NCBI RefSeq assembly: GCF_004331685.1
Contig: NZ_SJSM01000019.1
Span: forward strand, 1-64,000
From: Pedobacter hiemivivus
GTDB lineage: Bacteria; Bacteroidota; Bacteroidia; Sphingobacteriales; Sphingobacteriaceae
Direction: 5' to 3'
DNA length: 64,000 bases
A program made the position numbers and the translations under genes. The notes beneath the pieces are model-generated. The model ran no database searches. It was not told the DNA's origin and worked only from the letters and a program-made list of their open reading frames with translations. Of this stretch, positions 6,755 through 50,138 are shown in pieces (the first letter of the stretch is position 1; each line of letters starts with the position of its first letter).

Positions 6755-6791
6755 AATAGTATATGCAATTAAATTGCATATACTATTTTTG
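6755..6791 (+). promoter_or_regulatory. Palindromic operator overlapping a -7 promoter box
   Basis: The arms AATAGTATATGCAATT (6755-6770) and AATTGCATATACTATT (6772-6787) form a perfect 16-bp inverted repeat around one central base. The right arm overlaps a perfect -7 box, TATTTTTG, at 6784-6791, placing transcription start near 6798 and 11 bases before the first small gene. An odd-centred AT-rich palindrome over a promoter fits binding of a dimeric Fur-family repressor. The operon's last gene encodes one. That this is its operator is inference. Confidence 0.75.
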
Positions 6792-6808: not shown

Positions 6809-6937
6809 ATGAACAAGAAATTATTATTAGGCGCGCTATTAGTATTTGTAAGCATGATCAACCCAGGTTGCAAGCACGGTAAGGTAGACAGCACAAAACA
6901 TGCTGTAAAATGTACAAGTAGCCATATCAATAAATAA
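6809..6937 (+). CDS. Small predicted lipoprotein, first gene of the metal operon
   Basis: The 42-residue frame starts MNKKLLLGALLVFVSM and has a classic secretion signal followed by NPGC, a possible but weak lipobox, and then KHGKVDSTKHAVKCTSSHINK. The mature part would be about 22 residues with three His and two Cys, suited to binding a metal ion. It starts about 11 bases after the predicted transcription start and ends 4 bases before the ABC ATPase gene. No family is recognised. It could instead be a leader peptide whose Cys/His codons or translation affect the operon. Confidence 0.6.
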   Translation: MNKKLLLGALLVFVSMINPGCKHGKVDSTKHAVKCTSSHINK

Positions 6938-6941
6938 CATT

Positions 6942-7571
6942 ATGATTTCATTAAAATCCGTTTCCCACGAGTATCCTGGTGGGCATCGCATTGCGTTTAA
7001 AGACTGGCAGATCAACCATGGCGACCAATGGTTGTTGTTAGGTGAGTCGGGCAGTGGAAAGACTACCCTCCTACACGTACTAACGGGTATACTAAAACCT
7101 TCGGCTGGAGAAGTCCGGATTAATGAAACTTCCATTTATGGATTATCTTCTAAAGCGCTAGATCAGTTTAGAGGGCGAAATATTGGGATTATATTTCAGC
7201 GTCCTCATTTGATCAAAAGTTTAAGTATTACAGACAACCTGGTACTTGCACAAAGTTTCGCAGGACTGCCAACTGATTTAGACCGGGTAAATGAGGTTTT
7301 AACCTCATTGGGTATTGCAAACAAGAAAAAAGCCTATCCAAATGAGCTTAGTCAGGGGCAATTACAACGTGTTTCTATCGCAAGAGCTGTGATTAATAAA
7401 CCAGAACTGCTGATCGCAGATGAGCCTACATCCAGTCTGGACGATAAAAATGCGGCAGCGGTATTGGAGCTTTTACTTCAGCAATCAGGTATTAACCAGG
7501 CCACATTGGTCGTTGCTACCCACGACAAAAGAGTTAAAGATGCATTTACAAATACTTACGAATTAGCATGA
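6942..7571 (+). CDS. ABC transporter ATPase, LolD/MacB type
   Basis: This 209-residue ATPase has Walker A GESGSGKT (34-41), the Q-loop region IFQRPHLIKSLS, signature LSQGQLQR, Walker B LLIADEPTSSLD and H-loop VATHDKR. Its size and sequence fit the LolD/MacB/FtsE class that pairs with FtsX-type permeases rather than classical importers. The next gene overlaps its stop by 4 bases and encodes that permease, so the two are translationally coupled. There is no MacA-like adaptor. Its position behind the palindromic operator suggests metal-controlled expression. Confidence 0.92.
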   Translation: MISLKSVSHEYPGGHRIAFKDWQINHGDQWLLLGESGSGKTTLLHVLTGILKPSAGEVRINETSIYGLSSKALDQFRGRNIGIIFQRPHLIKSLSITDNLVLAQSFAGLPTDLDRVNEVLTSLGIANKKKAYPNELSQGQLQRVSIARAVINKPELLIADEPTSSLDDKNAAAVLELLLQQSGINQATLVVATHDKRVKDAFTNTYELA

Positions 7572-8833
7572 GCCCATTAAAAATCAGCTGGAAAAGCTTA
7601 TGGTCTAAGCCCCTTTCTTCGGCATTAAACATTATGCTGATTGCCTTTGGAACGGGAATTTTAACCATTCTACTACTAGCATCTACTCAGATTAGTGAAA
7701 AATTAGACAACAACTCAAAAGATATCGATTTGGTGGTAGGTGCCAAGGGCAGTCCGCTGCAATTAATTTTAAGCAGTATTTACTATATAGATTTTCCAAC
7801 TGGAAACATCCCATTAAAAGAAGCGATGGAGCTGGCCCGTAGTCCTTTTGTAAAGCGCGCTGTACCCTTAGCTTTAGGCGACAATTACAACGGTACACGC
7901 ATCGTTGGTACCGACAGCAATTTTGTAAGTCTTTATCAATTAAAAACGGCTCAGGGAAAGTTCTGGCAAAAAGATTTTGAAGCGGCTATTGGTGCTACAG
8001 TTGCTAAAAACCAAAACTTGAAAATTGGAGATACTTTTTATGGTGCACATGGTTTATCAAGTAGCAGTGACGTACACAAGAGCCATCCTTATGTTGTATC
8101 CGGCATTATGACCCCACAGGGAAATGTAACCGATAACCTGATCCTGACCAATGTAGCCAGTGTTTGGAAAATGCATGATGAACATGAAGACCATGACCAT
8201 GATGCAAAAGAGGCGCATGAACACGAAGCGCATGATCACAAAGCACACGAGGCTCATGACCATGAGGCTGATGATCACTCCAACGATGAATCACGCGAGT
8301 TAACCTCTTTATTGATTCAATATCGCTCGCCTATGTCTGTAGCCATGTTCCCAAGGCTTGTAAACGAAACTACAAATATGCAAGCTGCTTCTCCTGCACA
8401 AGAAAGCACACGCCTTTTCTCGCTAATTGGCGTGGGGGTAGACACCCTTCAGTGGTTCGCTATACTCATTATGTTCATTGCAGCCATCAGTGTATTCGTA
8501 AACCTTTATAACTCTTTAAAAGAGCGCAATTATGATCTGGCCATTATGCGTACGCTAGGTGCTTCGAGAACAAAATTATTCCTCATCGTTATTGCCGAAG
8601 GTATTATGCTCACTTTGGCAGGTACCATCATTGGGATATTACTGGGGCATTTGGTATTAGAGTTTATTGGCAGCAATCAAGAGAGCAGTCAGGCCCAGCT
8701 AAGTGGTTTTGTTTTACTTTACAATGAAATATATCTATTTGTTGCCGGACTTGGTATTGGTATATTTGCTGCTATAATCCCTGCGATACAGGCTTACAAG
8801 TCTAACATTTCGAAGATATTAGCTAAGAACTAG
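7568..8833 (+). CDS. FtsX/MacB-type ABC permease with histidine-rich loop
   Basis: This 421-residue permease has an N-terminal membrane helix (about residues 13-40), a large extracytoplasmic domain and three C-terminal helices, the FtsX arrangement. Within the extracytoplasmic domain residues 203-237 contain 12 His alternating with Asp, Glu and Ala. This is a strong candidate for binding zinc or a similar ion. Such a loop is not part of ordinary LolC or MacB. It resembles the layout of Zur-regulated Zrg-type systems in Vibrio, where an ABC ATPase and permease work with DUF-family periplasmic proteins. Direction of transport is not shown by sequence. Confidence 0.88.
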   Translation: MSPLKISWKSLWSKPLSSALNIMLIAFGTGILTILLLASTQISEKLDNNSKDIDLVVGAKGSPLQLILSSIYYIDFPTGNIPLKEAMELARSPFVKRAVPLALGDNYNGTRIVGTDSNFVSLYQLKTAQGKFWQKDFEAAIGATVAKNQNLKIGDTFYGAHGLSSSSDVHKSHPYVVSGIMTPQGNVTDNLILTNVASVWKMHDEHEDHDHDAKEAHEHEAHDHKAHEAHDHEADDHSNDESRELTSLLIQYRSPMSVAMFPRLVNETTNMQAASPAQESTRLFSLIGVGVDTLQWFAILIMFIAAISVFVNLYNSLKERNYDLAIMRTLGASRTKLFLIVIAEGIMLTLAGTIIGILLGHLVLEFIGSNQESSQAQLSGFVLLYNEIYLFVAGLGIGIFAAIIPAIQAYKSNISKILAKN

Positions 8834-8856
8834 AAATTTATTATAAAATAGAGACA

Positions 8857-9300
8857 ATGATGATAAAGAGAATGATATTGGTTGTTTTACTTTTTGCAGG
8901 CTTCGCTGTTAAAGCACAACACAATCCTAACGATCAGATTAACTCGGATAACTGGGATGTTGTAGGTGGCGTAGACTTTAAAATTGTTAAGGACACCGAA
9001 ATGCAGGCCATTTTTTCACCTGAAATAAAAAAGTACGCCAATAAACCATTTGAACTAGAAGGCTACATTGTACCGATTAAAGATGGAATGAAGCAAACTA
9101 AGTTTATGCTATCTACCCTTCCTATCAATCAGTGTTTTTATTGCGGAAAAAATGGTGTACCTATTATGGTGCTGGTAGAAATGACAGAGCCTATCAAGTT
9201 TACGTACAAAACGGTAACGATCAAAGGGACGTTAAAGTTAAACTCGGGCAATGCGATGGACAATCCGCCTATTGCATTGATTGCCGCTAAAATAATATAA
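8857..9300 (+). CDS. Secreted CxxC protein, possibly DUF3299-like
   Basis: The 147-residue product has a signal peptide ending near AVKAQ, with no lipobox, so it is probably periplasmic. The mature part is beta-rich and contains ELEGYIVPIKDGMKQ, followed by LSTLPINQCFYCGKNG with a CxxC pair that could bind metal or form a disulfide. The pattern recalls DUF3299, whose members occur in zinc-regulated operons, but the match is by eye and the family assignment is tentative. It lies 23 bases after the permease and 2 bases before the Fur-family gene. Confidence 0.75.
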   Translation: MMIKRMILVVLLFAGFAVKAQHNPNDQINSDNWDVVGGVDFKIVKDTEMQAIFSPEIKKYANKPFELEGYIVPIKDGMKQTKFMLSTLPINQCFYCGKNGVPIMVLVEMTEPIKFTYKTVTIKGTLKLNSGNAMDNPPIALIAAKII

Positions 9301-9302
9301 CC

Positions 9303-9722
9303 ATGAATATCAATCCGGTAAGCATATTAAAAGAGCATGATTTAAAACACACCAAACAAAGGGTGCGCGTTTTAGAAGAGATTGCTTTAGATTCAGTAGC
9401 CATTTCACAACCCGACCTGGAGAAAAAACTAGGTAAGGAGATTGATCGGGTAACGTTGTACCGGATATTAAATACTTATCAGGAGAAGGGAATCCTACAC
9501 AGGATTATGGATATGAATGGAACTGCCAATTATGCGGTCTGTACCTCTTCCTGCTCAGAAGATCACCACCATGATGAACACGTACATTTCAACTGTACAA
9601 ATTGCAATAAGATTTACTGCTTAGAAGTAGAAGCGCCAAGAATTAAGATGCCGAAAGGATTTACCGCAAAAACCGTAAGCTCTATTGCTTACGGCATTTG
9701 CGAAAAATGTAATGCTATTTAG
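9303..9722 (+). CDS. Fur-family metalloregulator, Zur-like
   Basis: This 139-residue protein has the Fur winged helix (LKHTKQRVRVLEEIA and RVTLYRILNTYQEKGIL) and metal-site residues in HHHDEHVHF. Two CxxC pairs, CTNC and CEKC, match the structural zinc site. Fur-family proteins repress genes when their ion is bound. The operon contents (His-rich permease, Cys/His lipoprotein) point to zinc over iron, which is inference. It is the last gene of the operon, consistent with autoregulation through the upstream palindrome. Its stop codon overlaps that of the convergent SlyD-like gene. Confidence 0.9.
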   Translation: MNINPVSILKEHDLKHTKQRVRVLEEIALDSVAISQPDLEKKLGKEIDRVTLYRILNTYQEKGILHRIMDMNGTANYAVCTSSCSEDHHHDEHVHFNCTNCNKIYCLEVEAPRIKMPKGFTAKTVSSIAYGICEKCNAI

Positions 9723-10219
9723 TGACCAGAATGGCCGTCAGCGCCATGTGCATGACCGTGAGCTAATTCATCTTGAGTAGCTTCACGTACTGCCAATATC
9801 TCACCTGCAAAAATCAGGTCTTTACCAGCCATAGGGTGATTCAAATCAACGTTAACCACAGTTTCATGGATAGCAGTAACACCAGCTCTGAAATGATTTC
9901 CTTGGTTATCTTGTAAAGGAATTACATCACCAACAGCAGGTAAACCAGCTTCTTTAAACATATCGATTGGCAAGTCAGCAAATGCTCCCGGATCAATTTC
10001 TCCGTAGCCATCAGCTGCAGAAAGTTCGAAACCATAAGAATCGCCAACATTTAAACCAGCCAAATGCTCTTCAAATTTTGGAAGCATCATTCCTGTACCA
10101 TATAAAAAAACTAATGGATTTTCTTTATCCGTTTTTTCTACAAAAACTTGTTGTCCTTCTTCATTAGTCGTATGCAATTCGTACGTTAATGATACTACTG
10201 TATTGGGTTTAATACTCAT
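9719..10219 (-). CDS. FKBP-type peptidyl-prolyl isomerase, SlyD-like
   Basis: The 166-residue protein has an FKBP core with GTGMMLPKFEEHLAGLNVGD, the inserted flap of SlyD proteins, and the conserved NHPMAGKDLIFAGEILAVREAT segment. The C-terminal tail AHGHAHGADGHSGH has six His, as in SlyD proteins that bind nickel or zinc and assist metalloenzyme maturation. No signal peptide is present. It is convergent with the Fur-family gene, overlapping by 4 bases, so the His-rich tail and the metal operon are physically adjacent. Co-regulation is not shown. Confidence 0.9.
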   Translation of the reverse strand: MSIKPNTVVSLTYELHTTNEEGQQVFVEKTDKENPLVFLYGTGMMLPKFEEHLAGLNVGDSYGFELSAADGYGEIDPGAFADLPIDMFKEAGLPAVGDVIPLQDNQGNHFRAGVTAIHETVVNVDLNHPMAGKDLIFAGEILAVREATQDELAHGHAHGADGHSGH

Positions 10220-50096: not shown

Positions 50097-50138
50097 AGCA
50101 TATAAAAAAAGCCCCAATTGGGGCTTTTTTTATATGCT
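50097..50138. terminator. Perfect 42-bp palindromic terminator
   Basis: The sequence is a perfect inverted repeat with 21-base arms and no spacer, centred on CCCCAATTGGGG. Each side carries a run of seven A or T and then ATAT/GCT. It lies between convergent murA and the CBS-like gene and can terminate both. Confidence 0.92.

Follow-up and report, generated by a model that had tools for sequence, protein, structure and literature searches.

Gene organization and family relationships

A compact group of five genes was analyzed in Pedobacter hiemivivus, whose genome comprises 6.58 Mb (contig NZ_SJSM01000019.1, positions 1 to 64,000; this stretch of 64,000 nucleotides is referred to as the window). 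The five open reading frames (ORFs), all on the plus strand, extend over 6809-6937, 6942-7571, 7568-8833, 8857-9300 and 9303-9722, with spacings of 4, -4, 23 and 2 bp. The ORF listing thereby confirms both the coordinates and the spacing given in a preliminary description of the locus, which had been made from the sequence alone. In a Pfam scan of the five proteins the domains ABC_tran, FtsX together with MacB_PCD, and FUR scored above their cut-offs, while signal peptides were assigned by eye. A palindrome that the preliminary description had not mentioned lies directly 5′ of the first ORF. The operon and its upstream region contain the following features:

6755..6787, no strand assigned: palindrome AATAGTATATGCAATTAAATTGCATATACTATT with perfect arms of 16 bp around a 1-base centre, proposed Zur operator (inverted-repeat scan; recurrence in relatives)
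6784..6791, plus strand: TATTTTTG, candidate Bacteroidota -7 promoter element (consensus TAnnTTTG) overlapping the end of the palindrome
6809..6937, plus strand: micro-lipoprotein of 42 aa, lipobox-like NPGC followed by KH (ORF; similar small ORFs in relatives)
6942..7571, plus strand: ABC ATPase, ZrgC/PA4064-like (PF00005, E = 3.1e-33; Walker A GESGSGKT, LSQGQ, Walker B LLIADEP, H-loop THD)
7568..8833, plus strand: FtsX/MacB-type permease, ZrgB/PA4065-like, type VII ABC fold (PF02687, PF12704; Foldseek top matches LolE and MacB; hhalign)
8857..9300, plus strand: exported OB-fold CxxC protein with C93 and C96, remote relative of DUF3299/ZrgE (PA4066) (PF11736; model; VIA-align; hhalign)
9303..9722, plus strand: short Fur-family regulator of 139 aa, proposed Zur, with CxxC...CxxC and an HxDxHxH loop (PF01475, E = 5e-9; alignment; co-occurrence with the box)

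The permease aligned over its full length with 17 outgroup permeases of proteobacterial and Deinococcota origin, the Zrg-type proteins of Pseudomonas and Phaeobacter included (hhalign E = 1.7e-67), and a profile-profile comparison of the CxxC family with seven proteobacterial DUF3299 proteins gave E = 5.8e-9. When the permease alone was used in tblastn, loci with the order DUF2796-ATPase-permease-DUF3299 were retrieved from Pseudomonas, Phaeobacter and Pseudooceanicola. Since both families align with loci of this type, the operon is, judged by its sequence relationships, the core of a Zrg/PA4063-66 system without ZrgA, and hence of a kind already known. No DUF2796 protein (ZrgA/PA4063) was detected by Pfam among the five operon proteins, the search having been confined to these and not extended to the rest of the genome, and the ZrgA match of the permease in NCBIfam (E = 0.0016) is limited to its His-rich loop. 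Among the matches listed for the permease, the closest one with a name comes from Pedobacter sp. ok626 (94%); records very near to the source may be left out of these matches. The gene order is conserved in Bacteroidota, with a CxxC-type gene downstream of the permease in 79 and an ATPase upstream in 78 of 80 loci, one ATPase-less locus being cut by a contig end; two of the 40 phylum loci (L192 and L211) yielded no permease with the ORF picker.

Within the permease, three periplasmic histidines and a neighbouring loop were compared:

8048..8050, plus strand: invariant His161 of the periplasmic triad (alignments)
8075..8077, plus strand: invariant His170 of the periplasmic triad (alignments)
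8174..8176, plus strand: invariant His203 of the periplasmic triad (alignments)
8180..8287, plus strand: His/Asp/Glu-rich loop of variable length and His content, modelled with very low confidence (pLDDT ~30; permease model; orthologue counts)

H161, H170 and H203 are kept in 81/81 Bacteroidota permeases and 6/6 outgroups of a first alignment, and in all 29 sequences of a second one, including 17/17 outgroups that are plasmid-borne relatives from other phyla. The triad is absent from the six single-unit MacB_PCD paralogues of the same genome that were aligned; the genome has 12 PF12704 matches outside the window, and the six left unaligned lie in duplicated permeases of ~790 aa or in shorter or unrecovered pieces. 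A fourth histidine, H361, is invariant within Bacteroidota only.

The loop, which the triad directly precedes in sequence, has at most 12 histidines per 35-residue stretch, in line with the preliminary description. Its His content varies among 80 orthologues, of which 18 have at least 8 and 49 have at most 5 histidines per 35 residues; orthologous permeases lacking the loop are what the preliminary description had itself named as evidence to the contrary, and by that criterion the loop cannot define the system. With a His content ranging from 3 to 15, the loop was rejected as the defining metal site, and the H161/H170/H203 triad is instead the candidate metal site by which the system could be defined.

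The CxxC motif of the exported protein is invariant in 34/34 aligned relatives. The protein was modelled with a pLDDT of 92 as an OB fold (Foldseek, VIA-align), and its one Pfam match is to DUF3299 (PF11736; E = 0.008, 16.7 bits), under the cut-off of 22 bits. In VIA-align the model matched 4hsp (PA4066) first (Z 8.0, rmsd 3.1, 100 aligned), with unrelated OB folds 0.8 lower. 4hsp was also the top match of a profile search of the PDB sequences with the CxxC family, albeit without significance (E = 0.11), and phmmer with the CxxC protein gave no match in the PDB. Foldseek returned weak OB-fold matches, none with E ≤ 0.001, and 4hsp was outside the first 50. The first Cys is present in 32/32 aligned members across the CxxC, CIHxPPPP-like and CCYSVPPE/CMHVPPPQ-like subfamilies. 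The accessory proteins of the operon had been described as different from those of the Zrg system, which is correct in that ZrgA is missing and does not apply to the CxxC protein, a remote ZrgE/DUF3299 relative.

DUF3299-like proteins with CCYSVPPE- or CMHVPPPQ-like motifs, intermediate between the CxxC and CIHxPPPP forms, were seen in the Bacteroidota loci L199, L205, L207, L209, L214, L215 and L218. Moreover, two or three divergent copies of the CxxC protein follow a single permease in tandem in L048, L053, L056 and L085-L098, suggesting hetero-oligomers or different recipients.

An upstream palindrome and the Fur-family regulator

The palindrome at 6755-6787 scored 16 in an inverted-repeat scan with a spacer of 0-1 base, while 30 composition-matched Markov windows reached 11 at most. 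Its 19-base core has one exact match in the whole genome, i.e., the operon site itself. The single higher scorer in the window is a terminator-like palindrome at 50098-50137, perfect over at least 40 bp and flanked on both sides by A/T runs, which is likely a bidirectional terminator.

With up to one mismatch allowed, the pattern ATGCAA-N5-TTGCAT was found repeatedly among 100 related loci and the window. It was matched 63 times in the 80 genome-contig loci, against 8.8 matches expected, and in the Pedobacter-type loci (L064-L098 and the window) its usual place is between the COG0523 and MerC genes or 5′ of the ATPase. After omission of six of 81 loci in which the contig end was too near, the box was located 5′ of the ATPase in 25/26 loci that carry the Fur gene of the operon versus 3/49 that do not (75 usable loci, window included; Fisher p = 1.5e-15, a value inflated by shared ancestry). 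Among the 33 usable Pedobacter-type loci alone, 25 Fur loci have the box and 1 does not, while of the others 1 has it and 6 do not.

A box with one mismatch was also detected 5′ of a methyltransferase-PAP2-ZIP operon, the third gene of which is the sole ZIP gene found in the genome; this box overlaps the longest possible ORF and lies ~90 bp upstream of where the ORF begins in relatives. Near the same position, a box with no more than one mismatch is present in 10 of 21 Pedobacter genomes (the present one included), versus 0.3 expected. The genome-wide list of 1-mismatch boxes was dropped as a regulon set, its count being at chance level, and the boxes used as evidence are those backed by position and conservation (ZIP operon). 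A reversed-pattern control (0 sites) was an unfair control for composition and was left unused.

The regulator matched PF01475 with 36.8 bits (cut-off 23.1), and its cysteines C98, C101, C133 and C136 are invariant in 10/10 aligned sequences. Against the Zur equivalog NF008646 it scored 33.8 bits, below the cut-off of 167. Genes for COG0523, MerC and Fur proteins are present in 19, 22 and 26 of the 80 loci, respectively; neither CobW_C (COG0523) nor MerC was found in the P. hiemivivus genome by Pfam search. Because the box tracks the Fur gene and is shared with the ZIP operon and the COG0523 and MerC loci, the Fur protein of the operon is very probably a Zur, and we infer zinc as its effector from the predicted operator and the other targets of that operator. 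A small Zur regulon and a Zur box are thus proposed for Pedobacter.

A small ORF with an NPGCKH-like motif lies 5′ of the ATPase in 18/35 Pedobacter-type loci, window included, and all 18 carriers fall within the 26 loci that have a Fur gene (by-eye counts); the ORF of the 42-aa lipoprotein is thus probably genuine. At the other end of the operon, a SlyD-like FKBP isomerase with a His-rich tail (9719-10219, minus strand) is convergent with the Fur gene and overlaps its end by 4 bp. This neighbour, a possible metal-binding chaperone, is kept across many Pedobacter loci.

A few further loci were noted in connection with the regulator and its box. In L161:3171-11306 the genes for a large CzcA-like pump and a His-rich CzcB-like adaptor are followed immediately by the gene for a Fur paralogue, 42% identical to the window protein, and then by that for a His-rich P-type-ATPase-like protein (pump, adaptor and ATPase-like protein named by eye), with a 1-mismatch box at the 3′ end of the paralogue gene; this locus is perhaps a zinc-excess counterpart. 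In L159:3066-7726 the box variant ATGCAATTAAGTTGCTT opens an apparent operon for a small Cys/His protein, a TonB receptor and two DUF4625 lipoproteins, a candidate outer-membrane zinc uptake system, although the box is suggestive only. The same holds for the 1-mismatch box upstream of a FAD oxidoreductase gene of the same genome (L160:4396-5349). Pyridine-nucleotide/FAD oxidoreductases recur near zinc loci (also L084:8114-9007, L206:8155-9060 and L052:11777-12685), the assignments being by Pfam for L160 and L206 and by eye or BLAST for L084 and L052.

Gene neighbourhoods in relatives

Seventeen plasmid loci were opened out of 117 matching records; they were hand-picked, mostly one per genus, and are a non-random sample. 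The order alkaline phosphatase-CxxC protein-ATPase-permease, on one strand, was observed in 11 of the 17, which represent 10 genera in two phyla (Alphaproteobacteria, Deinococcota). PF00245 was confirmed in 4/4 of the phosphatases tested. In the unannotated locus L178 the phosphatase was identified by tblastn and the CxxC-type gene and the permease by BLAST, the ATPase being unchecked. The hypothetical small genes of the phosphatase loci encode relatives of the window CxxC protein (E = 2.1e-9, 10 aligned). As judged by eye, all 11 phosphatases carry a Sec-like signal and no twin Arg, and their zinc is therefore expected to be acquired outside the cytosol.

The remaining six plasmid loci contain DUF2796 in three cases, a biotin/lipoyl (HlyD-type) adaptor in two, and MerC with DUF3299 in Catenovulum. 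Among the loci retrieved with the permease alone, that of Pseudooceanicola has two genes for GTP-binding proteins, one of them CobW/COG0523 by Pfam, and that of Phaeobacter has a Fur gene. In Bacteroidota, genes for M20-type peptidases and a Met-zincin, which are exported and probably zinc-dependent, were detected in 6/80 loci (BLAST; Pfam for L106 and for the M20 peptidase of L099), and L197 has an alkaline phosphatase gene together with COG0523 and DUF4625 genes. TonB receptors near the ATPase-permease-CxxC trio in 15/80 loci are weak evidence, the TonB queries being generic. The linkage of the relatives to genes for exported zinc enzymes suggests that zinc is handled outside the cytoplasm.

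Known systems and possible modes of action

The Pedobacter operon resembles the zinc-regulated Vibrio ZrgABCDE, taken here from published descriptions, in its ATPase, MacB-type permease and DUF3299-type exported protein, its Fur-family regulator and the probable setting of zinc starvation. Unlike the Vibrio system, it has no ZrgA (DUF2796) or ZrgD, carries CxxC in place of the CIHxPPPP of DUF3299, and adds the His-rich loop of the permease, the in-operon regulator and the micro-lipoprotein. With Pseudomonas PA4063-PA4066, a Zur-regulated system proposed to export pyochelin-cobalt, it shares a DUF3299 protein and a homologous permease in which the His triad is likewise present (as compared with plasmid-borne copy L162), whereas it has no DUF2796 protein, and no pyochelin or pseudopaline genes were recognised in the operon. 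In PMC8561739, PA4063 is said to have no homologues in other organisms, which speaks against the family view.

The Caulobacter Zur regulon includes znuGHI of the ABC-2 type and TonB receptors (PMC4176598). By its described layout, znuGHI is similar to a DUF3526/ABC-2 cassette 5′ of the trio in the Bacteroidota loci L206 and L211, a cassette that is not part of the window operon. In these two loci, an ABC-2 permease pair directly precedes the trio (L206:1631-4430 and L211:1594-4432; DUF3526 by Pfam in L206 and by BLAST in L211).

The FtsX-type fold is common to the operon and to MacAB-TolC, LolCDE and FtsEX (type VII ABC), from which it differs by separate ATPase and permease genes, the His triad, and a CxxC OB-fold protein instead of a MacA/LolA/EnvC-like gene. 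ABC systems of the LolCDE/MacB/FtsEX fold act on the periplasmic side or export. The closest folds of the permease model in Foldseek are LolE, MacB, YbbP, HrtB and FtsX, none of which is, to our knowledge, an importer.

The lack of ZrgA, CxxC for CIHxPPPP, the internal His loop, the in-operon Zur-type regulator, the micro-lipoprotein and the proposed Pedobacter Zur box appear to be new variant features. Judged from titles and abstract starts, with subscription journals mostly outside the search, no description was found of a linkage between alkaline phosphatase and an FtsX-type ABC system, of a Pedobacter Zur box or regulon in the literature on Bacteroidota Zur, or of a family-wide His triad in that on DUF3299/DUF2796 and type VII ABC plus zinc.

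We consider it very likely that the operon is a zinc-starvation operon of the Zrg type. The permease and CxxC alignments, together with the operator shared with the ZIP operon, support the earlier proposal that the operon may be the Bacteroidota counterpart of Zrg and under Zur control. The operon would very probably be autoregulated by its own Zur-type Fur protein: at adequate cytosolic zinc, Zn-Zur on the palindrome would block the promoter, and expression would follow when zinc falls, as the operator and its other targets indicate. The products would form a machine of the Zrg/PA4064-65 type, consisting of the cytosolic ATPase, the permease and the exported OB-fold CxxC/DUF3299 protein, with the presumed three-His site in the periplasmic domain of the permease beside an optional His-rich antenna loop. 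Most likely, zinc would bind the triad in the periplasm, and ATP hydrolysis would drive a conformational stroke across the membrane by which zinc is moved between the triad and the CxxC partner. The metal could then be passed on to zinc proteins outside the cytosol or made available to the ZIP importer, and in neither case would it need to cross the membrane through the ABC unit.

Such ATP-driven periplasmic handling of zinc could be consistent with both the Vibrio and the Pseudomonas data, and it would agree with the enzyme neighbours. We slightly favour action within the periplasm over transport across the membrane, and the whole chain, from a zinc-starvation operon of the Zrg type to ATP-driven zinc handling in the periplasm, has in our view an even chance of being correct. 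Only tentatively do we propose the more specific idea that the CxxC/DUF3299 protein, the ATPase and the His-triad permease constitute an ATP-driven zinc insertase or mechanotransmitter, which would metallate exported zinc enzymes in the periplasm.

Several points weigh against a zinc-starvation operon with periplasmic zinc handling. In Vibrio, a znuA mutant depends on zrgA for growth when zinc is limiting, which was read as import, and loss of zrgE alone did not affect growth (PMC9820375); PA4066 showed no evident zinc-binding ability (PMC11481552). The permease model is of moderate confidence (pLDDT 73). Alkaline phosphatase genes occur in just 2/120 Bacteroidota loci (L083, L197), both with RR-type signals, and most loci without a Fur gene have none of the zinc-linked neighbours searched for, as is the case for most Algoriphagus, Sphingobacterium and Parapedobacter loci. 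In 11 of 21 Pedobacter genomes the ZIP operon has no box with at most one mismatch. Finally, such sites are not enriched in the P. hiemivivus genome, with 15 seen (one exact) versus ~20 expected from a first-order Markov model of the window, and isolated weak sites therefore prove little.

The main rival, which we regard as rather unlikely, is import of periplasmic zinc into the cytosol by the ABC pair, the role suggested for ZrgABC of V. cholerae; the His loop and the CxxC protein would then stand in for ZrgA as the binding protein. Besides the zrgA phenotype, a need for ZrgA in low zinc was read as import (PMC9817125), and import would agree with the operator common to the operon and the ZIP importer operon and with the fact that no ABC-3 permease (PF00950, ZnuB) was detected in the genome. 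The operon permease itself is of the FtsX type, unlike that of ZnuABC. Import is disfavoured by the folds closest to the permease, by the missing ZrgA in the operon and by the ZIP importer already present in the genome, and the repeated linkage to exported zinc enzymes would be unexpected. Moreover, loss of PA4065 in a znuA zrmB background left cell zinc unchanged while apparent zinc demand and cobalt rose, which was read as export of pyochelin-cobalt (PMC11481552).

The accumulation of pyochelin and cobalt in PA4065 mutants (PMC11481552), the MacB-like fold and the HlyD-type adaptors adjoining the trio in Ruegeria and Alisedimentitalea (Pfam for the latter) would be accounted for by an exporter of a metallophore or a metal-metallophore complex, as proposed for PA4064/PA4065. 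We regard this as unlikely for the Pedobacter operon. ORF and Pfam reading revealed neither an HlyD/MacA gene nor a metallophore gene next to it, no metallophore search having been made, and the triad is invariant also in the relatives linked to alkaline phosphatase, for which a metallophore would not be an evident substrate.

Control by iron or peroxide through a Fur/PerR-type regulator, with a metal other than zinc, is improbable. The best NCBIfam match of the regulator is the iron Fur model (E = 2.1e-10), albeit with 40.3 bits far under the cut-off of 146, and the genome has three Fur-family genes; however, a separate canonical FUR match is much stronger at 103.5 bits, and the box is shared with the ZIP operon and the COG0523 and MerC loci. 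An ordinary lipid or lipoprotein exporter of the MacB/LolC type with an accidental metal link would explain the resemblance to LolCDE, MacB and YbbAP, but it is highly improbable given the scores far under the equivalog cut-offs (ATPase 127.1 of 966 bits for MacB, with separate genes and no HlyD in the operon; lolCE 65.2 of 362 and LolD 153 of 308 bits), the missing triad in the aligned MacB_PCD paralogues and the recurrent zinc-linked contexts.

So far, the Zrg/PA4063-66 family has been interpreted in two ways, as importing zinc and as exporting a metallophore. The triad, invariant from Bacteroidota to Deinococcota, can be targeted directly by mutation, and the exported zinc enzymes encoded repeatedly beside the trio provide a simple enzyme assay for the function of the machine. 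A zinc insertase, if true, would reconcile the conflicting claims for Zrg and PA4063-66: the machine would be common to Bacteroidota, Proteobacteria and Deinococcota, with alkaline phosphatase, M20 peptidase and Met-zincin as targets, and would have been recruited into Zur regulons under zinc scarcity. Periplasmic loading of this kind would mean that cells spend ATP on metallating their exported zinc enzymes.

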